From a virus, in the IMG/VR virus record IMGVR_UViG_3300010354_000835, positions 1 through 20,995 of that record: 20,995 nucleotides of DNA; one strand, written 5' to 3'. Below, in pieces: positions 1 through 20,897 of this stretch. Each line of letters begins with the position of its first letter. Position 1 is the first letter of the stretch. The notes under the pieces are model-generated. The model saw only the letters and a list, made by a program, of their open reading frames with translations. It was not told the DNA's origin and did not search any database. The translations under genes were made by a program, and so were the position numbers.

Positions 1-413
1 CCATTGCCACCATCTAGTATTTCTAGTCTGGTAACAAATTTGTAATCGATACCTGCCGCAGCACTAGATTGCTCTAAGAAGTCAAACTGCTTCTGGATTT
101 GTTCTCCAACTAACTTGGAGATGTTACCGCCGGCATCATCTCTTAGAGTACAAGTCACTGTCTGCCATTCTGGCTTACCAGCAAGGTATACTTTGCTGTT
201 ATAAACATCAACAGCAAAAGAATTAAATTGTACTGTTGGTCTCTTAAAATCTATAACTTGTTTTGTAAGTTCTGTAACATTTCCGCTAACCCCAAAGTTT
301 TCAAAAGTGACTCTGAAACGATATTTCATCTTTGGCATTAACAGACCTTGATTGCTAGCACTCTGATTGCTACTTAACGGAACAGTCAGTTTTGTTAATG
401 ATGAAACTGCCAT
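1..413 (-). CDS. Tail tube protein, gp19-like (3' end outside window)
   Basis: This is the inner tube subunit of a contractile tail, the conduit for DNA inside the sheath. I translated it by hand because it runs off the window. 137 complete codons are visible, starting MAVSSLTKLTVPLSS. The stretch around residues 29-41 (MKYRFRVTFENFG), then TELTKQVIDFKRP, VYLAGKPEW and LVGEQIQKQFDFLEQ, and finally GIDYKF near residue 121, match the pattern I know for tail tube proteins of marine T4-like phages. The ATG at 413 is supported by AGGAGA at 421-426, seven bases upstream. It lies directly downstream of the sheath gene on the same strand, the T4 gene 18-19 order. A hairpin terminator (481-507) and a late-type promoter (445-452) separate the two, so the tube can be transcribed on its own, as expected for a protein needed in many copies. 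The C-terminal part is not seen. Confidence 0.88.
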   Translation of the reverse strand, partial: MAVSSLTKLTVPLSSNQSASNQGLLMPKMKYRFRVTFENFGVSGNVTELTKQVIDFKRPTVQFNSFAVDVYNSKVYLAGKPEWQTVTCTLRDDAGGNISKLVGEQIQKQFDFLEQSSAAAGIDYKFVTRLEILDGGN

Positions 414-444
414 TTTGTGATCTCCTTTAATCTGATCTTAAATT

Positions 445-452
445 TATTTATC
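445..452 (-). promoter_or_regulatory. T4-type late promoter for the tail tube gene
   Basis: GATAAATA on the minus strand, one base from the T4 late consensus TATAAATA recognised by a gp55-type sigma factor. Transcription would start near 439, about 13 bases before the ribosome site at 421-426. Assignment rests on motif and position only. Confidence 0.6.
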
Positions 453-480
453 ATTATTTTGAATTTATTTTTTACCCAAA

Positions 481-507
481 AAAATAGGGGCCTAAGGCCC
501 CTATTTT
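481..507 (-). terminator. Hairpin terminator after the tail sheath gene
   Basis: Perfect inverted repeat AAAATAGGGGCC / GGCCCCTATTTT (12-bp arms, 3-base loop TAA), beginning 14 bases past the sheath stop codon. The A/T ends give a U-tract in either direction, so it may work on both strands, but only minus-strand genes flank it. Confidence 0.85.
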
Positions 508-520
508 AATTACCAAACTA

Positions 521-3500
521 TCAAATATCTCCGGGATTACGTATACGTAAAGGAATGTAAATAAATTCCACCGAACGTACAGGAGCTATTGCTATATCTA
601 CATATAGTTCATAACGAGCTATACGACTAGGATCATTGTTAGTTTCATCGCAAACAACTAGATAATCGTACAATGCACGTTTAGCAACTAAATCATTCAT
701 TAAACTCTCAACCGATTGTTTAATTTGATCTCTAGTTACTTTATCGTTAGGTTCAAATAAGAAATTATTGCTTAATGGTTGTAATGCTTTTCTTACGTAG
801 TTAACTAATCTTGCAACATTAATACGATCAAGAGCACTAGTTAATCCATATCGTGTTTTTTGTCCGTATATAAGAATACCAGTTCCGGGCAATCTTGTAA
901 TAGGATTAATTTTGTTCTCATATAGTGTATCACGAGTTGCTTTGCCTACACCAAATACCTGGAATTCACCAGTTGCTTCGTTGATGTATCCGATATTAGA
1001 AGCATTATCGACATTGCCGCGACGAGCACCAGCTGGTGCAAACCACTGATAACTCTTTGCATCGCTGCTTAGTAATGTTCTTAATACCATATGACTTGGC
1101 GGAACAACGATTTGTCTACCGCTAAGATCAGTTGTTAATCCCGACGGATAAAAGAATCCTAAGTATTCGCTAGAAGTACCAGCACCGTCGCCATTGTTAG
1201 ACCAATTCAATATATCAACTTGATTTGGAGCTAATGTCATTGGTGTGTCGCCAACAACAAAAGCCGTTAAGTTTCTGTCGTTGTTTAGTGATAAAAGATT
1301 TGGTACTACTTCGGGGTATCCGGGACAAGCAATAACATTAAATTCGTATTGATCTTCTCTAACAGTTACATTAGAATCGACCACGGATTTAAGTGCAGAA
1401 ACAACCATTGCTCTTTGAGCCTTAGGTCCAGCATACATACTACCGTCGGTTTTAAGTCCGCTTGCTGTTACCCATGTATCTTTAACAGTGGGCAATGTTT
1501 CGCCGGGATATGCAACCGCATTAAATCTATTAGCATGAAACTGTTTAACATTAAATCCACTTCTACGTAGATTAAACAGTAACATTCCTCTAGGATACAA
1601 TTCCCAATTTGGTGCATCTAAATCTAAATAATTACTAGTTGTCAAAGATGCAATTGATGGTATGTCGTCACCCACGGGATCAACAGATCCGCTAGTTCCC
1701 CAACGAGCATCAGCAAATAAAACTCCATCGCTGCTGACTTGATCTGTATTGTCAATTAGATCCCAAGTTGTACCATTGTATCGATACAATTTAGGATAAT
1801 TAACAAGATCGCTCGTATCTAACCATAAATCTCCGGCAACTAACGCAGGGGTAACTGAATCGTCTGGCTGCTCAGTTGGTTCTGTTGCACTTACTATGAC
1901 TCCACCAGGATTAGTTAAGCTTAAATTATAACCACGGTAATCACTTGTTACTGTTCGATATCCTTTCCAACCAGTTGTAGTATTAATCATGATATCGACT
2001 TCGGTACTATCACTGTAATACCATAATGTTCCGTTATCTGGTGTAGCGACCGGTTCATTGGTATCAAAAGTATAAGTCAATGGTTCGAATCCAGTTAGGG
2101 TAACACCAACAGTTCTTAATCCGCTGGACCAAACCTCCGACCATTTGTTTCCATATGTGCCGTCGCTTAGATACGCATAAGTTTTTTCATTTGTGGTATT
2201 GTACCACATATCGCCGTCGAGTTTAGTTCCTGCTGGTTCTGATGATCCTGAACTAAATCTATCGGCAGTCGATGATGCTACCCAATTACTTCCATCGTTT
2301 GCTGGATCGTAAATGTATTCTTTTCCGTCTACAAGATAAAATAGTTTATCACCAATTTCTGGTGCTGTTGGCACCCCGGCACTAACGGTGTAAGAGTTTC
2401 CAATTAGTTCAACAGTGGCACTAGTAACCGTAACAGTTTGTCCTGAAGGTATTGTTCCGCTACCAATCCAATTTGTTGACGAAATTGAAATCACTCCGCT
2501 ACCACTATTATACGAGCCAACTAGTCCTCTTATAGCTGTATATGCAGTAATAGATGTGCTAGCAACTGTTTGACTGTCACTTACTGTGTAAGTACCAACT
2601 CCGCCTGACCCGCCCACAAACGCGGTTATAGTTGTTCCTTCTTCGATTCCTGTGCCTGTTATAACCTGTCCTACAAATAGTACACCCGATGCTACAGCGG
2701 AAACTGTTAAAAGTGTACCGGCTATAGATCCAGTTATTTCTGCTACATGTGTTAAAGTAACAAACTGTCCTGACTGGAATCCTAATCCTGTTCCAATTGT
2801 GGGACTCTTAGTTCCTGCCCCGACAGCGATTCCGCCGCCACCTACGGTACCGGTACTAGTAATTCCAACATCAAATAATTGATTAGAATTTTCTGTATGG
2901 TAGTTGTCGATTAATCCTTGTTTAATTGATACTGGCCAAGAAGCATTATTCGTCGACACAAATCCTGCATCAGTTACTGGATTTCCTATTAAATTAGTTA
3001 AATTAATTAATCCACCCCCAGTATGAGTAATTGTAATCAATCCGCTATCTGAAAGGCTAATATCGAGATTAGGAATATTAACTAATTGTACATCTTCAAC
3101 AAATGAGCTAGCTGTGGTTCCCGATAATACTACAGTATAAGAAACGTATGAAGATCCGTCGCTTATACCGACAGTAAACGAATCACCTGCCAAAAATGTT
3201 CCTGGCGTGGTTCCAGTGATACTGGTTGATCCTAGTATCGAACGACGATAAATTTCTATATTAGTACGTCCCTGCTTATTAACGTCAGTAGAAACATATA
3301 AAGTTCCTACTGTAATAGACGATCCACCGTTAGTACTATCTAATGCTCCTAGTGCATCTAATTCTGTTGCATATGTAGGTACTGCTACTGGTGCCCACTC
3401 GGCATTATCGGCATCATATTGTGACATTGCCAACGATAAACCGTTACCTACAGCCGAATTTTTCATCCATACACTTCCGCTAGGACGTGGTGCAGGATCG

Positions 3501-4579
3501 TTTGATGCCCACTCAGGAACCGAACTATTACTACTAATTTGAACTATAGGTGCATAAAATGTAGCAACATTCCCGACATAATCAACACCGAGATCATCTA
3601 GTATCCCGGTAGAGTCAACACCTAAGTCTTGTTCAAAAATTAATTTACCATCTGCGACGTCATCGCCAAGACTCGAAGCTTCGTTAGTAACACTAAGAAT
3701 TAATTTTCCTGATGCCACTCTAGCTGAAACTCCGTCGATACTTGCTGAATTAATTTGACTTGCCCAATTTGATACTGATCCAGTCAAAGTGATAGCAGTT
3801 CCATTCAGAATAATATCAGCACTACCACTGATAGAGGGATTAGCTACCGAAGCTATCATTGCAGTAATTTTAGATTGCCAATCAATACTACCTACTAATT
3901 GCCAGGTGTTGTCGTATGCTTTATAAAAAATTCTTACTTCGGTTTCTGTGTCATCGGTAATATTACTGATAGTTGCATCACTTTTTGAAATTTCTGAGTC
4001 GGTACCGCCGATAACGATTGCGTAACTACCCAATGATCCAAAAGATCCCTTGGGTACATAATTATTTGATACTATTTCAATATTCGAACCAGTGGCCAAT
4101 AATGGAGTTTTTCCAACAAACTGATTTCCTGAATAGTCCCATTCAAAAATTCCAAAGTTTGAATCGTCTGTATCTAACCAATATGTTCCGTCTGCAGGCT
4201 CGCCGACCGGACGAGTAGTTCTAGGTTCTAATGCTTCAAGGTCTATATCTGCTCTTAAGATGTAGGCACGATTGCCTAACCCTAATGTACTATAAGCAGC
4301 CATGAGTCCATATTCATTTCTTTCGTCACCATGTATTGCTGTTCCAATCGATGTACGTCTAAAGACTGGTTGTCCATACTTAGTAACTAAATCTCTTTGT
4401 GACGAAACAGAATCTAATTTACCGGCATTAGATGCTAATGTTCCTGAGGTTAAATTATTGTTGTATAATTTATTAGTTCCCGACGCTAGTACAATGAGAG
4501 GTACCGTAGCCTGAGCTGTTGGTAAATATGTACTCTCGTCGATTGTTTGTACTTCTAAACCTGGTGATGTAAGTGCCAT
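521..4579 (-). CDS. Contractile tail sheath protein, gp18-like, with very large central insertion
   Basis: Sheath subunit whose rings contract to drive the tube into the cell. At 1352 aa it is about twice T4 gp18 (659 aa). The recognisable sheath parts are at the ends: residues 1-115 ([10 protein letters not shown]..., then [15 protein letters not shown]) and about 955-1352 ([78 protein letters not shown]). Between them lie roughly 800 residues of beta-rich, T/S/G-rich insertion. These include a glycine-rich module at 614-680 and aromatic motifs of the form G-x-x-W...Y-x-Y-x-G-x-x-W near 126-157, 358-400, 738-770, 780-818, 840-875 and 900-945. Insertions between conserved sheath ends are expected to project outward from the tail, so they may be surface decorations (inference). 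The start has AAAAGGAA at 4587-4594, seven bases upstream, with a late-type box before it. No frameshift is seen. Confidence 0.92.
1745..2368 (-). repeat. Four tandem aromatic 'W...YxYxGxxW' units in the sheath insertion
   Basis: Covers sheath residues 738-945. Each unit of about 35-45 residues runs from a G-D-x-x-W-type strand ([39 protein letters not shown]) to a second strand ending in G-x-x-W or similar ([35 protein letters not shown]). The units are diverged at the protein level. They are probably small beta hairpins or carbohydrate-binding-like modules, but the function is not known. Confidence 0.6.
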
Positions 4580-4610
4580 TTTCTGGTTCCTTTTAACATA
4601 AAGTTATTTT

Positions 4611-4618
4611 TATTTATT
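4611..4618 (-). promoter_or_regulatory. T4-type late promoter for the tail sheath gene
   Basis: AATAAATA on the minus strand, one base from TATAAATA. The predicted start near 4605 lies about 11 bases before the AAAAGGAA ribosome site (4587-4594) of the sheath gene. This is the weaker A-first variant, but its position matches the other units in the window. Confidence 0.5.
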
Positions 4619-4647
4619 CGAAACCTTGATTTTCAACGGTTTTGCCT

Positions 4648-4660
4648 GCCCTTTAAGGGC
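4648..4660. other. Short GC-rich inverted repeat between the sheath and zinc-ribbon genes
   Basis: GCCCTT-T-AAGGGC, a perfect 6-bp inverted repeat (it continues into AAGGGCCCTT). It sits where read-through from the kinase gene would have to be stopped before the sheath promoter, but there is no clear U-tract on either side. Weak terminator, operator or chance palindrome are all possible. Confidence 0.35.
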
Positions 4661-4670
4661 CCTTTATTCC

Positions 4671-4678
4671 AATAAATA
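4671..4678 (+). promoter_or_regulatory. Possible late promoter for the zinc-ribbon gene
   Basis: AATAAATA on the plus strand, ending five bases before the ATG at 4684. If used like a T4 late promoter, transcription would begin at or next to the start codon, giving a leaderless message. No ribosome site is visible upstream of this ATG, which is compatible with that reading but does not prove it. Confidence 0.3.
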
Positions 4679-4683
4679 GTGGC

Positions 4684-5031
4684 ATGAGAAGAAAAATTTG
4701 TCCGTCTTGTAATAAAAGACCTGTGGCTATAAATTATAAATTAGAAAATCGAATACATTATCGATCACGATGTGACCGTTGCAGTAGACAAAATAGATTG
4801 CCCAAGGATCCAATTCCAACTTGGGCAAGATCGGGATATGTAAAAAAAGAAAAATGCGAAAAATGCGGATTTAAAAGTATATTGCTAGAACAAATGTTTG
4901 TTTGGTTTTTAGACGGAAATGATCAAAACAATAAATGGTCTAATCTAAAAACCATTTGTTCTAATTGTAAAATTGAACTTACTAAAAAATATTTTATCTG
5001 GACTGATGATCCATTAAAACCCGATCGTTAA
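4684..5031 (+). CDS. Small four-CxxC zinc-ribbon protein, degenerate HNH-like
   Basis: 115 aa, basic, with four CxxC pairs: C6/C9 (CPSC), C30/C33 (CDRC), C58/C61 (CEKC) and C92/C95 (CSNC), enough for two zinc sites. The second half has the layout of an HNH nuclease: aromatic-rich strand, D-G-N at 77-79, N82/N83, then NLKTICSNC. In active HNH enzymes the residues before D-G-N usually include the catalytic His; here they are W74-F75-L76, so the nuclease is probably inactive or the protein is only a zinc-binding relative. It is transcribed opposite to the sheath and kinase on either side, and its last 38 bases overlap the kinase 3' end. This looks like a small gene inserted between structural genes, as homing-type genes often are in T4-like phages (inference). 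No good ribosome site precedes the ATG. Confidence 0.7.
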   Translation: MRRKICPSCNKRPVAINYKLENRIHYRSRCDRCSRQNRLPKDPIPTWARSGYVKKEKCEKCGFKSILLEQMFVWFLDGNDQNNKWSNLKTICSNCKIELTKKYFIWTDDPLKPDR

Positions 5032-5632
5032 TTAATCGATCAACTTGTGCGTATAGTGAAGCTAAATCTGAATTATTGTCAATGATGTGATCAAAATCAT
5101 ACCCAACCCAAGACCACTCAGATGAATGTACTATAGTAGCTATTTCGGCCCGAGCATGTGAATCACCTTGATTGGCTTTAATGGCTAAATCGTACCAGTC
5201 GGGATTTTTTCCTCTCACTACCATTAAAGATTTTCCGCCTAACTTTTTAATGGTTGCTAATTCGTTAGGGAATCGAGCATCCGAAATTACAACATTTCTT
5301 GCATTGTTCCTGATACGATTTTCTACACTGGCTATCCAAATATCATCATGAAACCCTTGTCGGCAGACTTCGGTGCCCCAATATTGTAAGATCCATCTTG
5401 GAGTAATATTCATACCAAGACGTTCACTCCACCAAATATCTTTAGTTTCTCTCCAGTATCGGCTTTCTACTGTTTTTCCTTCTAGCATTTCTCTATCCCA
5501 ACCAAAAATAGCAGAGACAGCATCTTTTAGTGCTCCGGCAAAACTGATTTGCTGAAACCCATATATACTTTGTAAGTATTCGCTAACAGTATCTTTTCCC
5601 GAGCCAATAAATCCACTAACTGTAACTATCAA
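4994..5632 (-). CDS. Deoxynucleoside monophosphate kinase, T4 gp1-like
   Basis: Transfers phosphate from ATP to dNMPs, supplying dNTPs for phage DNA synthesis in the cytoplasm. 212 aa, slightly shorter than T4 gp1 (241 aa). The N-terminus MIVTVSGFIGSGKDT holds a P-loop (G7-x-x-G-S-G-K13-D-T15). Further family-like blocks are FGWDREMLEGKTVESRYWR (43-61), TPRWILQYWGTEVCRQGFHD (77-96), VISDARFPNE (115-124), VVRGKNPDWYD (138-148) and a C-terminal SEWSWVGYDFDHIIDNN. The start is TTG at 5632, three bases after the neck gene's stop. Its AGGA ribosome site (5639-5642) lies inside the last codons of the neck gene, suggesting coupling. In T4, gene 1 is needed early, so read-through from the sigma70-type promoter at 7681-7709 would suit its role. 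No terminator is visible after the stop, so transcripts would run antisense into the zinc-ribbon gene. Confidence 0.9.
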   Translation of the reverse strand: MIVTVSGFIGSGKDTVSEYLQSIYGFQQISFAGALKDAVSAIFGWDREMLEGKTVESRYWRETKDIWWSERLGMNITPRWILQYWGTEVCRQGFHDDIWIASVENRIRNNARNVVISDARFPNELATIKKLGGKSLMVVRGKNPDWYDLAIKANQGDSHARAEIATIVHSSEWSWVGYDFDHIIDNNSDLASLYAQVDRLINDRVLMDHQSR

Positions 5633-5635
5633 AAT

Positions 5636-6415
5636 TTATCCTATCACAAATGTATATGGCATTGCACCATCTACATAATTTATAAGATCTTGCTCTAGTT
5701 TGTCAAGAAGTTCTTTCGCCTCAGTTTTTAATGTTCCACCGTTTAAGGTTGTACCGCCTTGTGGACCAGCAATAGTACTATACTTTTCTCGGGCTTCACC
5801 TAATGTATATTTGGCTAAAGCATAAGCATAATCCTGTATCCAAGGAAATGCCATATGATCCGACAATAATACCTGATCTGGTTTGTAGTTATATAACCAA
5901 AGTAGAACACTTTCACCATTGTCGGGTATCTTACGTATAATGGTCATTTTTTTGGTAACAGGATTAAAAGTGAAATTTATGTGACCACCAAACATACGCA
6001 TAGCTAGTTCTTGATACTGACTAAACAATTCGTAGTTAGTGAATCCCCCAACTCTACCTGCCACTAACATGTAAGTATTCAAATAACCACTAGCAAACGG
6101 TTCAAACTGACTAGCAGTTGTACCTGTTACAGATCCGATTCCCCTACGAAATACCTGACGCACACTCATTACTTCTTGAGGTAAGATATAGTCTTGTGTT
6201 TCTTTTACTAAATCTAAAAAAGCATAACTTTCCTCGACACTATTGCTGCTTCTTTGCCGATATTTTATTAGAGCTTGTTTAATAGATAATTCGTAATGTT
6301 CCTTGTCTAACTCAATGTCGATCATCTGATCGCCTAAACGAAGACGAATATAATCAATAATTTGATTTTTTATTGCATTAACCGATTCTAATTGAGCTGT
6401 AATTTCTGTGGTCAT
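5636..6415 (-). CDS. Neck (head completion) protein, gp13-like
   Basis: 259 aa. In T4, gp13 helps form the neck that closes the filled head and receives the tail; marine T4-like versions are of similar size to this one. The assignment rests on the N-terminal block NQIIDYIRLRLGDQMIDIEL followed by EHYELSIKQALIKYRQR, the LPQEVMSVRQVF segment near residue 80, and the C-terminal pattern with a GGTTLNGGTLKTEAKELLD stretch ending in a short hydrophobic tail, all features I associate with gp13-type connectors. The ATG at 6415 is preceded by AAAAGG seven bases upstream. That ribosome site lies in one arm of a perfect 14-bp inverted repeat (6416-6458), with a late promoter in the loop. The gene should therefore be translated only from late transcripts (inference). 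It is followed three bases later by the dNMP kinase. Confidence 0.75.
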   Translation of the reverse strand: MTTEITAQLESVNAIKNQIIDYIRLRLGDQMIDIELDKEHYELSIKQALIKYRQRSSNSVEESYAFLDLVKETQDYILPQEVMSVRQVFRRGIGSVTGTTASQFEPFASGYLNTYMLVAGRVGGFTNYELFSQYQELAMRMFGGHINFTFNPVTKKMTIIRKIPDNGESVLLWLYNYKPDQVLLSDHMAFPWIQDYAYALAKYTLGEAREKYSTIAGPQGGTTLNGGTLKTEAKELLDKLEQDLINYVDGAMPYTFVIG

Positions 6416-6458
6416 GGTTATACCTTTTAGAATATTTATCCGTGTAAAAGGTATAACC
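6416..6458 (-). promoter_or_regulatory. RNA hairpin hiding the neck gene's ribosome site, with a late promoter in its loop
   Basis: Perfect 14-bp inverted repeat GGTTATACCTTTTA (6416-6429) / TAAAAGGTATAACC (6445-6458) around a 15-base loop. On the minus strand the arm next to the start codon contains the AAAAGG ribosome site. The loop contains GATAAATA (6433-6440). RNA made from upstream carries both arms and would fold over the ribosome site. RNA started at the loop promoter begins near 6427 and lacks the upstream arm. Confidence 0.75.
6433..6440 (-). promoter_or_regulatory. T4-type late promoter for the neck gene, inside the hairpin loop
   Basis: GATAAATA on the minus strand, one base from TATAAATA and identical to the boxes before the tube gene and the 1447-aa gene. 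The predicted start, near 6427, falls inside the promoter-proximal hairpin arm, so the late message cannot form the inhibitory stem. Confidence 0.6.
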
Positions 6459-6472
6459 GTCGGTCAAATTAA

Positions 6473-7651
6473 TTATTCAACTTTCAATAAAATTGTATCC
6501 TCGTTAATGCGGCCGTTGGCTCTAGCTTCAACTGCGTTGATGTCATCTAGAAACTTTCTAAGTTGAATTTTGCTGGCTTTCATAAACTTAGATAACACCT
6601 CGGCGGGTTTACGAATAGTCTTACCCACGCTTTTAACTTCATCGTATCCAAGAATTGTAGTTCCTTTGATACTTAGTGTACTAGCAAGTTCGTCTGCTTG
6701 ATAACGATAAAGTTTACGAGTTTTAGTATTGTAAACCCAAAGTTTAGTTGCACCAATGATATCAACAGGATTGATACTAGTTAATTTAAGTTCTCGATCC
6801 TCTTTGAGATATTTTAGTTTAGAGACAAGTTTATCTTTGGATGGACTCTTTTTAACTCGTACTTTACGTGCTACTTTTTTGCTTTGAGCGTAGCTATCTA
6901 GATCTCCCCAAAGCTTTTCGTAGAAAGTAACAATCTGCTTAAGGCGAGCTTTCGAAAATCCTCGATAAGCTTCTTTCAATTGAGCATCTTTGCCTTCTAG
7001 TGCTTCGGCGAATTCCAACTGTTGCCGAGAGATTGTTTGGCGGAACTTCACAATCGAGCCTTGCGGAACATTATGCTCTTTAAGCCAATTGTAAAGATTA
7101 AACTCTTTTTTATTAAAAATAAAGTCGTCGATCAATCCTTCAACTTCACCGATGTACTCGGCTGTCTTTTCTGCTACACGGTCTGCAATAGTAGGAACTT
7201 TGACATCGGATCGTTTGGCTGCTGTAGGTTCTAGCTGTACTAGATTTTGATTTTCGTCGATGATTTTAGTTACTACTCTAACAATATGCTCCCGATATTT
7301 TTCTTTCATTGGCATACCGCGACGATATGCCATTACAAGACTACAAATGGTAATCGGACAGAACTGATCACTACTTTTGGCAAAAATGCTAATTTCTCGA
7401 GCATTGAGTTTGGTGTTTTCTTGCAACCACTCAATTACGTATTTTTTCAGTTCTTTGCTAGAGAACATATAATTATACCACCGAAAACTACGACGAAGGT
7501 GGTGTTCGAAATCTTCCTCGCTCATTGCAAGTGCTCGTTCAGTATCCCAGACTGGTTCTGCACCAATATATTTTTCGTCAACACTTAACGTACTTGCAAG
7601 TTTAGGTTGACGTTTTGTTGCAGTTTCTTTTTTAAGAGAAATACGAGCCAT
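6473..7651 (-). CDS. Conserved-looking phage protein of unknown function, probably early
   Basis: 392 aa, rich in Lys/Arg and predicted soluble, with no membrane segment, signal peptide or recognisable catalytic motif. I do not recognise a characterised family, though the C-terminal part resembles proteins I have seen uncharacterised in marine phages. Visible parts: helical, aromatic N-terminal region (HLRRSFRWYNYMF, 51-63), a mixed middle, a strongly basic stretch around 257-281 (KKVARKVRVKKSPSKDK), and a C-terminal domain from about 297 (LWVYNTKTRKLYRY at 304-317, then an alternating charged helix to the end). The basic stretch would suit nucleic-acid binding (inference). The ATG at 7651 is chosen because GGAG precedes it by four to five bases; an upstream in-frame start would lie inside the -10 box. 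It has the only clear sigma70-type promoter in the window, so it is probably expressed before the structural genes around it. Confidence 0.8.
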   Translation of the reverse strand: MARISLKKETATKRQPKLASTLSVDEKYIGAEPVWDTERALAMSEEDFEHHLRRSFRWYNYMFSSKELKKYVIEWLQENTKLNAREISIFAKSSDQFCPITICSLVMAYRRGMPMKEKYREHIVRVVTKIIDENQNLVQLEPTAAKRSDVKVPTIADRVAEKTAEYIGEVEGLIDDFIFNKKEFNLYNWLKEHNVPQGSIVKFRQTISRQQLEFAEALEGKDAQLKEAYRGFSKARLKQIVTFYEKLWGDLDSYAQSKKVARKVRVKKSPSKDKLVSKLKYLKEDRELKLTSINPVDIIGATKLWVYNTKTRKLYRYQADELASTLSIKGTTILGYDEVKSVGKTIRKPAEVLSKFMKASKIQLRKFLDDINAVEARANGRINEDTILLKVE

Positions 7652-7680
7652 ATTACACTCCAAAATTACCAGAAAAAACA

Positions 7681-7709
7681 ATTATACACTAAGATTCGAT
7701 CTTAGTCAA
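7681..7709 (-). promoter_or_regulatory. Sigma70-type early promoter with a palindrome in its spacer
   Basis: On the minus strand TTGACT (7704-7709), a 17-base spacer, then TATAAT (7681-7686): a near-perfect host sigma70 promoter, starting transcription near 7674 for the 392-aa gene. The spacer is almost exactly filled by a perfect 7-bp inverted repeat, CTAAGAT-TCG-ATCTTAG (7689-7705), a good candidate for a repressor or activator site. Confidence 0.85.
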
Positions 7710-7722
7710 CCGCTGCGGATTG

Positions 7723-7730
7723 TATAAATA
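7723..7730 (+). promoter_or_regulatory. T4-type late promoter (perfect TATAAATA) for the neck/tail operon
   Basis: TATAAATA on the plus strand, an exact match to the T4 late consensus. Transcription would start near 7736, followed by GGAG at 7742-7745 and the TTG start at 7753. It lies 13 bases beyond the -35 box of the divergent early promoter. Confidence 0.8.
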
Positions 7731-7752
7731 TTTAATAATTTGGAGAATAACC

Positions 7753-9123
7753 TTGCCTAGACTAAGTCTTTGGAAAGACGGTAAACATAGTAATGATTAT
7801 CGATACTTTGATCGTCAAATATCCGAAATGTTCACTGTTGGTGGCACAGGTATAAATGTACACAAATATCTAGGAACACTGGATCAGTCATTTAGTAGTC
7901 TAGTAACTACACAATCACAAACGACCCCGGGAACAACATTGACTTTTGCCAATACTTCAACTGTTAAAACTGGTGATTTTGTTTTTGGTACAGGGATAAC
8001 TACTTCAACAAAAATTTCTTCAAAAACTGCTACAACAATTGTACTGTCTCAACCGACTACTCAATCAGTTCCTTCAGGAACAACCATCAAATTTAGTGAA
8101 TCTGCTGACCAACCTGCATATATTAACGAAAGCGAAAAAAATATTCAAGATTTATTATTCCTAGAAAATAGAGATAGAAAATACGATACAGATGTTTACA
8201 GTATGAGGGGCATATATACTGTATCTGATACTGATTTTGATTTAACTCAATTTGGTCTGTTTTTAAGTTCTACTACCCTTTTTATGTCGTTTCATTTAAA
8301 CGACATGATCGAAATTTTAGGCAGAAGGTTAATGAACGGCGATGTTTTAGAATTAATGCATCTAAAAGATTATAATCCATTGGATGAGGATTTACCTACT
8401 GCATTAAAAAGATATTATGTTGTTAACGATGCTAGCCGAGCTAGCGAAGGATTTAGTCCAACCTGGTGGGCACATTTGTGGAGAGTAAAATTAACTCCAT
8501 TAGTTGATAGTCAAGAATACAAAGATATATTAAAAAATATTACTGCTAGCGAAGATAGCACCACTACTCTCGAAGATTTATTAAGCACATACCAAAAGTT
8601 TGCTAATATCAACGATGCTGTTATTGCTCAAGCCGAGTCCGACGTTCCACTAAGTGGATATGATACTGTTCCTCTATATACTAAAGGATTAAAAGCCAAT
8701 GGCTATCCCGAAGATCCAAATTTATTGGAAGCATCAGATCAAATTGTTATAAATGGGAATTCTAATATAACCGCAGACAATATTGGACAAACACCAGATA
8801 AAAGTATCTCAGGATATTTAACCGGCGACGGAATACCGCCCAATGGATATGCTGTTACTAGCGGTATTTCTTTTCCAGCTAATCCGGCATTAGGTGCGTA
8901 TTTTCTAAGGTTAGACTTTAAACCAAATCGATTATTTCGATGGAATGGAACAAAATGGGTCAAGGTCGAGGATAAGGTTAGAACTAATCTAACCCCAGGC
9001 TCAAATAATAAAACACTTAGATCTAATTTTGTTAACAATACAAATACACATACTAACAGTAATGACGATGTTTATAACGAACGTCAGGCACTAAACAAAA
9101 TATTTAAACCAAGAACAGAGTAA
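7753..9123 (+). CDS. Virion structural protein in the gp14 (neck) position
   Basis: 456 aa from a TTG start. GGAG (7742-7745) lies seven bases upstream, and an in-frame TTG at 7720 is excluded because it sits on the late promoter. The N-terminus MPRLSLWKDGKHSNDYRYFD, the block around 142-185 (RKYDTDVYSMRGIY, DFDLTQFGLFL, TTLFMSFHLNDMI), RRLMNGDVLELMHLKDYNPL (191-210) and TWWAHLWRVKLTPLVDSQEY (237-256) resemble proteins I associate with marine T4-like virions. The gp14 label rests mainly on being immediately upstream of a gp15-like gene, and the canonical gp14 N-terminal pattern is not seen. Two mosaic elements interrupt it: a T/S-rich beta module at 48-115 and an aromatic GAYFLRLDF...LFRWNGTKW motif near 380-402. 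The C-terminus is Asn/Thr-rich. A baseplate or other tail role is not excluded. Confidence 0.75.
   Translation: MPRLSLWKDGKHSNDYRYFDRQISEMFTVGGTGINVHKYLGTLDQSFSSLVTTQSQTTPGTTLTFANTSTVKTGDFVFGTGITTSTKISSKTATTIVLSQPTTQSVPSGTTIKFSESADQPAYINESEKNIQDLLFLENRDRKYDTDVYSMRGIYTVSDTDFDLTQFGLFLSSTTLFMSFHLNDMIEILGRRLMNGDVLELMHLKDYNPLDEDLPTALKRYYVVNDASRASEGFSPTWWAHLWRVKLTPLVDSQEYKDILKNITASEDSTTTLEDLLSTYQKFANINDAVIAQAESDVPLSGYDTVPLYTKGLKANGYPEDPNLLEASDQIVINGNSNITADNIGQTPDKSISGYLTGDGIPPNGYAVTSGISFPANPALGAYFLRLDFKPNRLFRWNGTKWVKVEDKVRTNLTPGSNNKTLRSNFVNNTNTHTNSNDDVYNERQALNKIFKPRTE
7894..8097 (+). other. T/S-rich inserted beta module in the gp14-position protein
   Basis: Residues 48-115: TTLTFANTSTVKTGDFVFGT then ITTSTKISSKTATTIVLSQP and SGTTIKFS. 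The alternating polar/hydrophobic pattern and 'VxxGDxVxGTxI...TTIVLS' layout are typical of small modules spliced into phage structural proteins. It separates the conserved N-terminal block from the conserved core. Confidence 0.5.
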
Positions 9124-9126
9124 TCA

Positions 9127-10497
9127 ATGCAACAATTTTTTTATTCAGGACAAATAAGAAGATTTATAAGTCAATTCGTACGAATGATGAGTAATTTTCA
9201 AGTCGAATATGGTAAAGACCGAGACGGTGTGACTAGTTTATTGCGTGTTCCGGTTGTATACGGAGACATGAATAGGCAGGTAGCTCAAATTTTGAGGGGC
9301 AACACCGAAAACGCATTAAATCATGTTCCTTCAATGGCTGTTTATATTTCCGGTCTATCGTATGATCGAGAACGTGTTCAAGAGCCATACCATGTAGATA
9401 AAGTTCATCTTAGAGAAAGAACTTATGATCCGATCACTGGAAACTATATTACTAACCAACAAGATAGTATAACGGTTGAACGACTAATGCCGGTTCCTTA
9501 TAAATTAGAACTAAAACTAGATATTTGGACTTCAAACGTAACCCAGAAACTACAGATAATCGAACAAATTGCATGTCTCTTTAATCCATCTTTAGAAATT
9601 CAAAATACAGATAATTATCTTGATTGGACTAGTTTAAGTATGATATCTTTAACAAATGTTAATTGGTCTAGTCAAACCGTTCCTGCCGGGGCCGACGATT
9701 CCATAGATATTATGAGTTTAACCTTTGAGATGCCGATTTGGATTACTACGCCAGCCAAGGTAATGAAGTTAGGAGTTATACAAAAAATTATTGCTTCTAT
9801 ATATGATCCTGCCGGCGAAATAAATGAAGATTCTATTTTAGATAGTAATCTAATAAGTCGACAATATATTACTCCTTTACAATATGGTGTTTTATTAATT
9901 GATAATACTTTGTTGTTAGTTAAAGAAAGTGAAATTCCCACAGACGACGGAAAAATAGGTACTAGAGATAGTTGGCCGGCTCTAATAGATGTATATGGTG
10001 TGATTAGAGATGGCACTAGTCAGATTAGATTACAAATCGACGACGACGGAAATGAAATCATTGGAACTATAGCCGAGCACCCGATGGACTCTTCGTTATT
10101 ATTATTCAATGTTTTTGAAGATACCTTACCAGCAAATACCGAGGCACCAATTTCAGCAATAATAGATCCATTTGCTGTTGATCCTGATGATACAGCTACG
10201 TTACAACCACCAACTGGAACACGATATCTTATATTAGAAGATATCGGAAGCGATATAGACAATGTTGCTGCCGAAGCTTGGAAAGGATTAAATAATTTAG
10301 AGTTGATTGCCAAGAAAAACGATATCATCGAATATAACGGTGTTAATTGGTGGGTTAGTTTTGTCAGTGAAGAAAGATCTGATGTTTCTTATGTTAGTAA
10401 TTTAAATACTGCTATTCAATACAAGTGGGACGGAATTCAATGGACCAAAAGCTATCACAGACATTATCCAGCAGGACAATGGAGTTTAATACTTTAG
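9127..10497 (+). CDS. Tail terminator/sheath stabiliser, gp15-like, with ~230-aa C-terminal extension
   Basis: In T4, gp15 caps the finished tail tube and sheath and joins the tail to the neck. The first ~225 residues match this family: short N-terminus leading into GQIRRFISQFVRMMSNFQVEY, a LLRVPVVYGDMNRQ strand (38-51), VPSMAVYISGLSYDRER (67-83), MPVPYKLELKLDIWT (121-135) and KLQIIEQIACLFNPSLEI (141-158), the family's 'QIIEQIL-x-x-F-x-P' motif. T4 gp15 is 272 aa. Here 456 aa include an acidic extension ending in two aromatic motifs, IIEYNGVNWWVSF (400-412) and IQYKWDGIQW (430-439), like those in the sheath and fibre proteins. The ATG at 9127 is three bases after the upstream stop, with a weak AGAG ribosome site, so it is probably translated by coupling. 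The Nudix gene overlaps its 3' end. Confidence 0.8.
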   Translation: MQQFFYSGQIRRFISQFVRMMSNFQVEYGKDRDGVTSLLRVPVVYGDMNRQVAQILRGNTENALNHVPSMAVYISGLSYDRERVQEPYHVDKVHLRERTYDPITGNYITNQQDSITVERLMPVPYKLELKLDIWTSNVTQKLQIIEQIACLFNPSLEIQNTDNYLDWTSLSMISLTNVNWSSQTVPAGADDSIDIMSLTFEMPIWITTPAKVMKLGVIQKIIASIYDPAGEINEDSILDSNLISRQYITPLQYGVLLIDNTLLLVKESEIPTDDGKIGTRDSWPALIDVYGVIRDGTSQIRLQIDDDGNEIIGTIAEHPMDSSLLLFNVFEDTLPANTEAPISAIIDPFAVDPDDTATLQPPTGTRYLILEDIGSDIDNVAAEAWKGLNNLELIAKKNDIIEYNGVNWWVSFVSEERSDVSYVSNLNTAIQYKWDGIQWTKSYHRHYPAGQWSLIL

Positions 10498-10940
10498 AAC
10501 ATAATCCCACTGTAATTGCTAGTGTAGGTTCTTTGATATACTCAAAAAATACTAAAAGATATCTTTTTCTTTTACGCAACGGAGATAGATTCAACGATAC
10601 CTGGAGTATTGCCGGAGGGAAAATTAATAAAAACGAATCTATTGTTAATGCACTAAAAAGAGAAGTTTACGAGGAAATTGGATTTGATATTTCAAATTAC
10701 AAATTAATTCCTCTAGAAACTTTTACAACACCAAACAATTATTTTTGTTATTATACTTTTTTAATACCAATTGAAACAGAATTTATTCCTATATTAAATA
10801 ATGAACATAAAGGTTGGGCGTGGACTGATATAGAGAATATACCTAAACCAACTCACCCAGGATTATTTAAAACTGTTCGTTTAGAAGAAATATTATCAAA
10901 AATTAAAACTACAGAAACTATTCATTTTTCGACGAATTAA
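10479..10940 (+). CDS. Nudix hydrolase
   Basis: Hydrolyses nucleoside-diphosphate-linked compounds; the exact substrate cannot be read from the sequence. The Nudix box is complete: G47-x5-E53-x7-R61-E62-V-x-E65-E66-I-G68-F69 ([14 protein letters not shown] then REVYEEIGF), with TWSIAGGK just before it. Length (153 aa) is close to T4 NudE (151 aa), but I would not transfer the name. The start at 10479 overlaps the gp15-like gene by 19 bases. Upstream starts at 10425 (GTG) and 10440 (ATG) would only add residues read out of frame from the gp15-like gene, before the expected first strand ([11 protein letters not shown]). The ribosome site (CAGGA, 10472-10476) is close and weak, so coupling is likely. 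It ends convergent with the fibre gene; the two stop codons share bases. A nucleotide-clearing enzyme at the end of a late structural operon is unusual. Confidence 0.88.
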
Positions 10941-10959
10941 TTTGATTTTTTTAATTCGT
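10932..10959. other. AT-rich 9-bp inverted repeat over the convergent gene ends
   Basis: ACGAATTAA (10932-10940) / TTAATTCGT (10951-10959) with a 10-base loop. It covers both stop codons: Nudix TAA at 10938-10940 (plus) and fibre TAA at 10937-10939 (minus). It may be a weak bidirectional terminator, but it lacks a U-tract after the stem and may be chance in AT-rich DNA. Confidence 0.35.
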
Positions 10960-13726
10960 TTATTTCAGCTTTTAATTCTTTAATTGCTTCAACTAATAAA
11001 GGAACTAATTTTTCATATTGTATGGTTAAATAATTTTCTCCCGATTTACTTTGCCCATTATCAGTCATATCGAAGGGAGCTGGCTTAACAATTTCCGGTA
11101 GTACCGCTTTAACTTCGTCTGCAAATAACCCTGCTTGTCTTTCATTTTTATCAAACTGTCCTAAATCCTCAGCAAGTTGATTAAAATTATAAGTTATACC
11201 ATTAAGTTGAGATACTTTTTCTAAGGCAGACTCAATTTTTAATACATTTTCTTTAAGACGTCTATCTGATGCATATGCTGTTACGTTGGAATGAACAAAT
11301 AAATTACCCGTTGTATCGGTATAAAATCTAGAGAATCCGCCTGAGTCGTATAATCCTACTACGTCATCTGAGTCGCGTCCAAAGAAATAAACATTTCTTC
11401 CAGTAAATTTCCATCGTAATGCTCTCTCAGAACTAGTAGCTTCAAGGTCCATACTTCCAGTTAATGTAACAGTATCTGAGAAAAATTTAAAATTATTTGA
11501 TCCGGTGATATTTGTTCCGTCGGCAGTATATAATATATGCTGTGCTGATAAACCAACAAGAGCAGCACCATCGTTACCTTTAATTCCTTGTAATCCCTGC
11601 GGTCCTTGAATACCTTGCGAACTACCGGCTGGTCCTTGAATACCTTGTATAAGTGCATCTGTACCTTGTAGTCCTTGTATACCTTGCCGTCCTTGAACAC
11701 CTTGGATTCCCTGTGTACCTTGTATGCCTTGTCCAGTTAGTCCTTGTGTTCCTTGTAATCCTTGCAGTCCCTGAATACCTTGATTGCCTTGTACACCTTG
11801 CAATCCTTGTAGTCCCTGTATACCTTGGTTGCCTTGTATACCTTGTCCAGTTAGTCCTTGTGTTCCTTGTATACCTTGCCGTCCTTGAGCTCCCTGGATG
11901 CCTTGGATTTCAGCGTTACTACCTTGCAGTCCTTGACGACCTTGAATCCCTTGCGTACCTTGAATCCCTTGTGTACCTTGAATCCCTTGTCCAGTTAATC
12001 CTTGCTGTCCTTGTAGTCCTTGAATCCCTTGTAGCCCTTGTGTACCCTGAGTGCCTTGTATACCTTGTCCGCCTGTAATTCCTTGAATATAGGCATCACT
12101 TCCTTGTAGTCCTTGGCGGCCTTGCAATCCCTGTATACCTTGGTTGCCTTGTAATCCTTGAAGAGTTATACCTTGAGTTCCCTGAATTCCTTGTACGTTA
12201 GCATTAGTTCCTTGTAGACCTTGTGTTCCCTGGATTCCTTGTCCTGTCAGGCCTTGTTGTCCTGTTAATCCTTGACGACCTTGAATTCCTTGCGTACCTT
12301 GGATCCCTTGTATATTAGCATCTGACCCTTGAATACCTTGTTGTCCTTGTAGACCTTGTGTTCCCTGAATCCCTTGCCCAGTTAGTCCTTGGTTTCCCTG
12401 AACACCTTGAGTTCCCTGTAATCCTTGTGTACCTTGAATTCCTTGTCCTGTCAGGCCTTGTTGTCCAGTTACTCCTTGTATTCCTTGTGTTCCTTGAATA
12501 CCCTGAACACCGTCGCCTTGTTGCCCTTGTATACCTTGTTCTCCTGTTATACCCTGAGTCCCTTGAGTCCCTTGAATACCTTGAGTCCCTTGAATACCCT
12601 GAATTCCTAATTGGCCCTGAGTTCCTTGTAATCCTTGAGTTCCTTGCCGTCCCTGAACACCTTGTAATCCTTGTGGACCAACTATTGGACCAACATTTTT
12701 CCAAGACCCCTCGGCCACTGACCAAACATATAAATCTGTTAATACTATATATGCTTCTGATAAATCAGTTGGTGGAGTGCCCGGAAGCCCGCCACCAGGT
12801 AATTCTGATTCGCTGGTTAATGTATCTATAATTTTTAATCCAGGACCAATATTGCCCTGAACACCCTGACGTCCTTGTATACCCTGTGTTCCTTGTATAC
12901 CTTGATGTCCTGTTAATCCCTGTTGACCTTGAGTTCCTTGTAAGCCTTGTCGTCCTTGGGTGCCTTGTAAGCCTTGTCCCGTTAATCCCTGTTGGCCAGT
13001 TAACCCTTGTACTCCGGTATTTCCTTGTAAACCTTGGACACTTTGCGGTCCCTGTATACCTTGTGTACCTTGTATACCTTGCTGTCCTGTCAATCCTTGT
13101 TGTCCAGTAATACCTTGCGTACCTTGAATTCCTTGTGTGCCTTGTGTTCCTTGTATACCTTGCGGACCCCTGAAAGGACCAACATTTATCCAAGTTGCCC
13201 CATCGTACACCCAAAGATCGCCTAATAGAGAATCAATAACGGCATTACCGGTTACTGCACCAGGAAAGGCTGTGTTAAGAGTAGTCTGTGGATTAGCTGG
13301 CGGAGCAACATTTACATCCGGAACCGATCCTAAAACAGTGATACTAGCACCATAAGACCCCTGAATTCCTTGAGTTCCTTGGATTCCTTGTCTGCCTTGT
13401 ACCCCTTGAGGTCCAGCAAATCCGTCTGGCCCTGTTTCAACCCATTGTCCGTTTCCAACACCGTCGTCGATATATGTATATTCTTTACCTGTGTCTGTAT
13501 CAAACCAACGATCACCTTCTGTAACATCGATAGTAGGCGGTGTTGCCTGAAAATAATATCTAGGACCTGTAACAACTGTATCTGGGTTACTAAATTTAAG
13601 TCCAGATCCGTCGTTGTCAACAACTACTATATCACCCGTTCTAGCCAGAGTTCCGTCTTCTCGTCGATACGATTCTGGTGTATCAACTAAAGTTCGAGTA
13701 AATCGAGGATCAAGTAGCCGTGGCAT
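10937..13726 (-). CDS. Collagen-like tail fibre with S74 intramolecular chaperone domain
   Basis: 929 aa, probably a trimeric fibre or whisker on the virion surface. An N-terminal region (~1-100) with an [11 protein letters not shown]...GQWVET motif precedes G-x-y collagen-like tracts (about 102-124, 186-296, 351-718). Globular inserts with aromatic motifs lie at ~125-185 and ~297-350. After the tracts comes a beta-rich segment, then a Peptidase_S74 chaperone: [20 protein letters not shown] with the Ser-x4-Lys pair (S820, K825) that self-cleaves in endosialidases, [16 protein letters not shown], and a C-terminal coiled coil ([18 protein letters not shown]). The domain should trimerise the fibre and then be cut off. 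The collagen tracts are Gln-rich ([15 protein letters not shown]) with very little proline, unlike animal collagen. The ATG at 13726 has GGAG seven bases upstream; a TTG six bases earlier fits the ribosome site less well. It overlaps the preceding 213-aa gene by 17 bases, the last cistron of the fibre operon. Confidence 0.9.
11573..13171 (-). repeat. Collagen-type G-x-y coding repeats, interrupted once
   Basis: Near-continuous 9-base periodicity, seen on the plus strand as endless variants of CCTTG-TATA-CCTTG. A non-collagen insert sits at about 12683-12838. Five short breaks of the form [S/T][D/N]A-x-[I/V]QG and seven LTGQG[I/L]QG register skips punctuate the protein repeat. A shorter tract lies at 13355-13423. 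The DNA is prone to slippage, so copy number may vary and assembly here should be checked. Confidence 0.9.
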
Positions 13727-14351
13727 TAGCAATCTCCAATAAGCTTACTGTTACATCTACGACATTAGGAACATTACATAAAATATACAATCCCAATTTT
13801 GCTGTTAATACCAGGTTACCGTTTAACGGATCGAATGCATTATTTGCTAAAACAGGATAATCTTTAACTAAATCTACACTAGTTAATGTTGTTAAATCTT
13901 TCACTCTGGCTGTTATTTTAACTGAGCTAAAATCAGCAGTCATATTTCCGGCTTCAGTTGTTAGTGCTTCGGCACTACCTCCTGGAGAAGTACTTACAGT
14001 AAATGTTGTTGAACTTGCAATGTTTTGAACATAGTAAGTTGTTGATGTGCTTAACCCCCCGAGCAAATTAGTTCCAGTAAAAAAGACCGGCATATCAACC
14101 GTTAAATTACCGGTATCGGCTGTAGTTAATACATTAGTACCGGTGGTTGAATTAGTAATTACTTTATTAGGTATATACGTTCTTTTATTTGAGCACTGTA
14201 CTGTTAGAACAACCGAGCTAACTTCTTCAGGCAAAACACCCAATTCAAGTCCTCTAGTTCCTCGTCCGATATCGACAGCGTAAACTAATTCTTCAGTATT
14301 ACTAGTAATAGGTACTCGAATATTTCTAAATTTAAAAATCGGGGCGGCCAT
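13710..14351 (-). CDS. 213-aa virion protein of unknown function carrying a dispersed beta module
   Basis: Not recognised as a named family. The N-terminal part ([40 protein letters not shown]) and C-terminal part ([39 protein letters not shown]) read as one small beta-rich domain. It is split at about residues 66-141 by a copy of the module repeated in the neighbouring 1447-aa protein ([50 protein letters not shown]). Without the module the protein would be about 135 aa. It lies between the large beta-helix protein and the collagen-like fibre in one operon: 22 bases after the former and overlapping the latter by 17 bases. A linker or base protein for the fibre is plausible (inference). The ATG has an AGAAGG-type site about nine bases upstream. 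Confidence 0.75.
13929..14156 (-). repeat. Dispersed beta module, copy in the 213-aa protein
   Basis: Residues 66-141. Shares with the four copies in the 1447-aa protein the order 'TNVLT - VxMxVxFxGT - GG - TTYYV - I - TTFTxS - GGSAxxL - TxxGxMTxxF'. Nucleotide identity cannot be judged by eye. Confidence 0.65.
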
Positions 14352-18748: not shown

Positions 18749-18775
18749 TAATGCAAAAAGAATTAATATCCAAAT

Positions 18776-18799
18776 AAAAAGGGCCAATAGGCCCTTTTT
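18776..18799 (-). terminator. Bidirectional-type hairpin terminator after the 426-aa gene
   Basis: AAAAAGGGCC (18776-18785) / GGCCCTTTTT (18790-18799), perfect 10-bp arms, loop AATA, with A/T ends that give a U-tract on either strand. It begins 19 bases past the 426-aa gene's stop. Confidence 0.9.
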
Positions 18800-18817
18800 A
18801 CGTACTCAAAACATAAA

Positions 18818-20889: not shown

Positions 20890-20897
20890 TATTTATA
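20890..20897 (-). promoter_or_regulatory. T4-type late promoter (perfect TATAAATA) of the small unit
   Basis: TATAAATA on the minus strand, an exact late consensus and one of only two perfect copies noted in intergenic DNA here. It lies seven bases after the terminator at 20904-20926, and transcription should begin near 20884. Confidence 0.75.

Follow-up and report, generated by a model that had tools for sequence, protein, structure and literature searches.

The neck protein gene of a 20,995-base virus record from IMG/VR (here called the window, meaning the whole stretch of DNA that was analysed) very probably carries a cis-acting temporal lock on its translation, of the T4 type in which a hairpin over the Shine–Dalgarno (SD) sequence has a late promoter nested within it. 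A sequence-only reading of the window had proposed the design used by the T4 genes e and soc, with the SD paired in read-through RNA and free in RNA started in the loop, and this proposal is strongly supported by the sequence. The mechanism is already known from T4; what is new is the neck gene of RaK2/PA5oct-like jumbo phages as its target, where it is unusually well conserved.

From the layout of the locus we infer promoter use, read-through, timing and repression as follows. Early RNA would start at a host-type promoter (7709–7681, minus strand), cross the gene for a 392-aa protein and run on into the neck gene. In this read-through RNA the two 14-nt arms of the hairpin would pair and bury the neck-gene SD beside the AUG, so that on our proposal ribosomes could not start there. 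In the late phase a polymerase with a late sigma factor like gp55 of T4 would start at GATAAATA in the loop, at about 6427, giving a late RNA that would lack the 5′ arm and in which the SD would be open and the neck gene translated. The outcome would be a virion component withheld until needed, with transcription through the locus still allowed.

Genes and promoters of the locus

The gene content of the window resembles that of jumbo phages of the RaK2/PA5oct/Atu_ph07 type and also includes a gp18-like sheath protein and a gp15-like sheath stabiliser. The order of genes on the minus strand is the 392-aa gene (6473–7651), the neck gene (5636–6415) and a dNMP kinase gene (4994–5632). The neck gene encodes a T4 gp13-like protein of 259 aa (head–tail adaptor Ad2; phrog_211, E 3.5e-33), the homologues of which are annotated as neck protein in PA5oct (with an ESI-MS/MS note), 121Q and GAP32, while the kinase is T4 gp1-like (phrog_139, E 3.4e-50, with Pfam DNMK) and has a TTG start. 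Elsewhere in the window, a small HNH-like ORF (4684–5031, plus strand; phrog_14736, E 2e-5) runs antisense to the kinase gene, overlaps its 3′ end by 38 nt and has AATAAATA 5 nt ahead of its ATG. A 931-aa protein (10937–13732, minus strand) is composed mostly of collagen-like GIQGTQG repeats, and by eye it has a stretch like a tail-fibre chaperone domain at its C terminus.

The 392-aa gene, which starts at the ATG at 7651 with GGAG ahead of it, belongs to phrog_11903, a family without assigned function, and is of early type by its promoter and neighbourhood. In other T4-like phages its homologues have nrd, glutaredoxin, RNase H and ligase genes as neighbours, and this setting amid genes of nucleotide metabolism fits early expression. 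At a cut-off of E ≤ 0.001 the protein gave no PDB match by sequence or by fold; its AlphaFold model has a mean pLDDT of 83 and a pTM of 0.37. Present in many T4-like phages and modelled with good local confidence, it is an early-type protein worth study in its own right.

The sigma70-type promoter ahead of this gene, TTGACT-17-TATAAT (7681–7709, minus strand), matches the consensus at 11 of 12 positions and is the best site in positions 1–11000. An equally strong sigma70 site stands upstream of the 392-aa homologue at about 17 distinct loci, including that of PA5oct (0/100 shuffles each), and, to judge by these sequences, the promoter is probably used early. A terminator scan detected no terminator between it and the late promoter of the neck gene; the late promoters at 20897, 20702, 18748 and 452 (all minus strand) in the window are directly preceded by an intrinsic terminator. 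Terminator and lock were never found together in the scanned genomes (0/27 tandem genes with a terminator).

Anatomy of the hairpin

As had been read from the sequence, a perfect 14-bp inverted repeat lies between the 392-aa gene and the neck gene. On the minus strand its 5′ arm, GGTTATACCTTTTA (6445–6458), and its 3′ arm, TAAAAGGTATAACC (6416–6429), are complementary at 14 of 14 positions and enclose a loop of 15 nt, CACGGATAAATATTC (6430–6444). This is the longest perfect non-overlapping inverted repeat of the window at distances up to 60; the next longest, of 13 bp at 481–507 and 11 bp at 18775–18800, are both terminator-like. The 3′ arm does contain the ribosome site of the neck gene, since AAAAGG occupies 6428–6423 and the arm abuts the ATG at 6415–6413, and the late-promoter motif GATAAATA (6440–6433), which matches the T4 late −10 element, was likewise confirmed in the loop. 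In T4 late promoters 5 nt separate +1 from the final A of the motif, and with this spacing the late transcript is predicted to start at 6427, downstream of the 5′ arm, which would then be present in read-through RNA only. When the minus-strand RNA was folded, as the sequence-only reading had suggested, its energy was −18.1 kcal/mol, compared with −7.8 ± 2.2 in shuffled RNA (z −4.8; 0/200), and the SD was fully paired (4/4) in the long transcript.

The distribution of the motif in the window is consistent with promoter function. ATAAATA shows no overall excess (10 copies, 11.6 expected); nine of the ten copies lie outside genes, in the roughly 6% of the window that is intergenic and where about 1.4 were expected, and several of these are closely upstream of structural genes. 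In the relatives CBB and GAP32, late promoters with this same motif have been predicted, and a gp55-like sigma factor has been reported in CBB (PMC5259590).

Energetics and dependence on context

The lock test compares the energy needed to open the SD through the AUG in the read-through RNA with that in RNA from the predicted late start, and its null confines shuffling to the RNA upstream of this start; the folds are purely thermodynamic and ignore co-transcriptional folding and RNA chaperones. Taking the hairpin of the window with and without its upstream arm bore out the proposed difference, as opening costs 15.8 kcal/mol in the read-through RNA and 2.0 kcal/mol in the late RNA. With shuffled upstream RNA the value is 4.0 ± 1.5 kcal/mol (0/200), and the result is insensitive to the assumed late-start spacing over 3–8 nt. 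Within the window, no other scored late-promoter gene is locked.

The lock is common among homologous loci. In a first set of 53 distinct neck-gene leaders, 37 pass the test at 0.05 and 22 at 0.005; with nine more leaders added, 45 of 58 distinct tandem leaders are locked (p ≤ 0.05), a count that is not of independent cases because the leaders are related. When the gp13 proteins are clustered, most leaders are locked in 29 of 41 clusters at 90% identity and in 18 of 27 at 80%. Start codons in the set were assigned by rule, four leaders being excluded for unclear starts (L003, L023, L038 and L074) and two because TAAATA is absent within 60 nt (L029 and L030). Among other late-promoter genes, taken from 121Q, four IMG/VR relatives and the window, 19 of 169 are locked (Fisher 5e-16), and the median energy difference is 1.4, as against 9.0 in the neck leaders; for genes with sigma70 promoters the count at p ≤ 0.05 is 7 of 98. 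Two members of the late-promoter control set deserve mention in themselves. An HNH homing-endonuclease-like gene (by eye) on contig G003 (L134–L148; 48721–49707) has the strongest nested-late-promoter hairpin of that set (17.7 versus 1.0 kcal/mol), which resembles those of T4 I-TevI and Aeh1 mobE, and a late-promoter gene of 121Q (W01; 35078–35623), the product of which has by eye the look of a KTSC-type domain, carries a strong lock (16.9 versus 3.2 kcal/mol).

Applied to the first 100 kb of T4, the test places e, I-TevII, segB and 49 at the top of 14 late-motif genes, and none of the remaining ten reaches 0.05, the nearest being gene 16 (12/200). All four are named as hairpin-controlled late genes in reviews (PMC3014915, PMC2988022).

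The presence of the lock depends on what lies upstream. None of the five leaders with an opposite-strand gene upstream (Atu_ph07, Phosso, SCTP-2, L177 and Vibrio phage 2.275.O) is locked (Fisher 0.001 versus tandem), and within an Atu_ph07-like pair L177, which belongs to this set, is open whereas L178, behind a 392-aa gene, is locked. Across all late genes the locked share is the same in tandem (13%) and divergent (12%) positions, so that a tandem position is not by itself enough to predict a lock; in many cases the tandem late gene has a terminator, or its neighbours are themselves late.

Conservation and covariation of the stem

Variation of the arms without compensation, the outcome that the sequence-only reading had set against its own proposal, is not what the relatives show: the arms covary, and pairing is kept by stems that are wholly different. 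Compensatory double changes are found at six pairs in one leader group and at five in another, and the covariation score lies above every one of the 500 shuffles and every slid control. Even among close relatives (the window, L070 and L071) the stems are unrelated in sequence, with complementarity and SD placement retained. The 45 locked leaders fall into three layouts: in 37 the loop holds the promoter, in six the 5′ arm sits after the −10 element and before +1, and in two the 5′ arm overlaps the promoter. In all three the late RNA is without the 5′ arm. The lock test found no significant lock in the close relatives L067, L069 and L073, in which the 392-aa protein is about 90% identical to that of the window and the early promoter, where visible, is the same.

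Alternative explanations

An intrinsic terminator would act differently: early RNA would end at the hairpin, short of the neck gene, and the nested late promoter would escape termination. Part of the RaK2-like group does have a T-run after a GC-rich 3′ arm (GAGGTGCTTTTTTATG in L106, with L181 and L187 as further cases; 7 of the 45 locked leaders), and a secondary terminator role is possible there. The stem of the window, however, has a loop of 15 nt and is followed by ATGACCAC, not by a T-run, and terminator scanners also find no terminator at it; termination was rejected for the window on this ground. As 38 of the 45 leaders lack a T-run and pairing of the SD or AUG is retained in every layout, we regard termination as a very unlikely account of the hairpin. 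A promoter flanked by inverted repeats would also suit a palindromic DNA operator, on which a dimeric protein would bind the repeat and control the late promoter between the arms, and T4 I-TevI does bind over its own late promoter and represses it (PMC2988022). The preference for pairing in the mRNA strand rather than in its complement (G–U versus A–C, sense versus antisense fold) is just a trend (23/37, p 0.06), which leaves some room for a palindrome acting at the level of DNA. Nevertheless, complementarity and SD placement persist in close relatives with wholly different arms, the open state of all five leaders with an opposite-strand upstream gene is not predicted by an operator, and some leaders have the 5′ arm placed after −10 and before +1, all of which make an operator highly improbable.

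Long perfect stems can be substrates of RNase III, and an element of RNA processing or stability, such as an RNase III or RNase E site, might trim the read-through RNA with no block on translation. Such an element does not explain why the SD should lie in the 3′ arm or why the 5′ arm should precede the late start in all the layouts, and many of the locked stems are only 7–10 bp, so that we give this account scarcely any weight. That hairpins arise by chance, or generically, at AT-rich late promoters would agree with the approximately 11% of late-promoter genes that pass p ≤ 0.05 and with the three close relatives that have no lock, but is strongly disfavoured, to the point of being barely credible, by the 0/200 of the window, the group-wide excess, the covariation and the effect of strand context. 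A translation lock on the neck gene is accordingly the reading that we prefer.

The dNMP kinase and a possible temporal filter

The sequence-only reading went further and saw a polycistronic filter, in which one early transcript would feed the dNMP kinase past a held-back neck gene. This part of the proposal stood only in some respects. With no terminator before the neck gene and no promoter in the window for the kinase itself, read-through would serve the kinase; on the other hand the TTG start of the kinase gene lies 3 nt beyond the stop of the neck gene, so that translational coupling may withhold the kinase too, and several relatives have a sigma70-like promoter directly ahead of the kinase gene. 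Independent synthesis of the kinase from early read-through, with the neck gene locked, is a reasonable proposal that we nonetheless hold at somewhat less than probable. The layout would not be unprecedented, because in Aeh1 the locked late gene mobE lies within the nrd operon (PMC2988022).

In two relatives, L024 and L008, a hairpin at the junction of the gp13 and kinase genes covers the kinase SD; a promoter of sigma70 type (TTGACT-17-AATAAT in L024) ends at its 5′ arm, and a T-run follows. Opening of the kinase SD costs 12.4 versus 2.7 kcal/mol in L024 (0/200) and 8.4 versus 2.9 kcal/mol in L008 (6/200). This hairpin may be a mirror-image lock, whose nested early promoter of sigma70 type would leave late read-through RNA silent for an early enzyme, or possibly a terminator with a nested early promoter. 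The frequency of locks among sigma70-promoter genes given above is near chance, so that the mirror case is not general. It is rather unlikely, if conceivable, that the neck–kinase segment forms a two-way temporal filter, with the neck lock joined in some relatives by the mirror-image lock and with gain and loss through upstream recombination; under such a scheme locks would come and go with the genes that recombination places upstream.

Comparison with known systems

These results suggest that the early/late translation lock of T4 reaches beyond a handful of T-even phage genes that are dispensable or mobile. It appears to guard the neck gene across a widely spread group of jumbo phages, with stems re-invented many times, and its presence tracks a same-strand upstream gene, which supports the idea that locks evolve when module shuffling puts a late gene behind an early one. 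The scan of opening energies in read-through and late RNA recovers the known T4 cases and is usable on any T4-like genome.

In T4 e, the lysozyme gene, late promoters lie in the 5′ strand of an SD-sequestering hairpin, the long early RNA being repressed and the late RNA translated (Uzan and Miller, 2010; PMC3014915). The e hairpin, which gave 16.3 versus 1.9 kcal/mol in the lock test (0/200), has reported conservation among close T4 relatives; it controls a lysis enzyme, in contrast to the neck protein here, and the stems are unrelated in sequence. Within early or middle operons, an SD lock with a nested late promoter is also described for I-TevI, I-TevII and segB of T4 and for mobE of Aeh1 (Edgell, 2010; PMC2988022). 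Of these, I-TevII has the same arm–promoter–arm order as the window, and mobE is a locked gene already within a polycistronic early operon; all four are, however, mobile homing endonucleases, whereas the locked gene of the window is a virion gene. T4 49, a nuclease gene, has its 5′ arm downstream of the −10 motif but ahead of the start, as do L040, L049 and L054, a layout that differs from the window's own, and both main layouts of the neck leaders (promoter in the loop, arm between −10 and +1) are thus also found in T4. T4 soc, unscored in the lock test as there is no TAAATA within 55 nt of its start, is a late capsid gene in an early region, the start site of which is sequestered (PMC3014915); its product is an accessory capsid protein, while that of the window gene is a neck protein.
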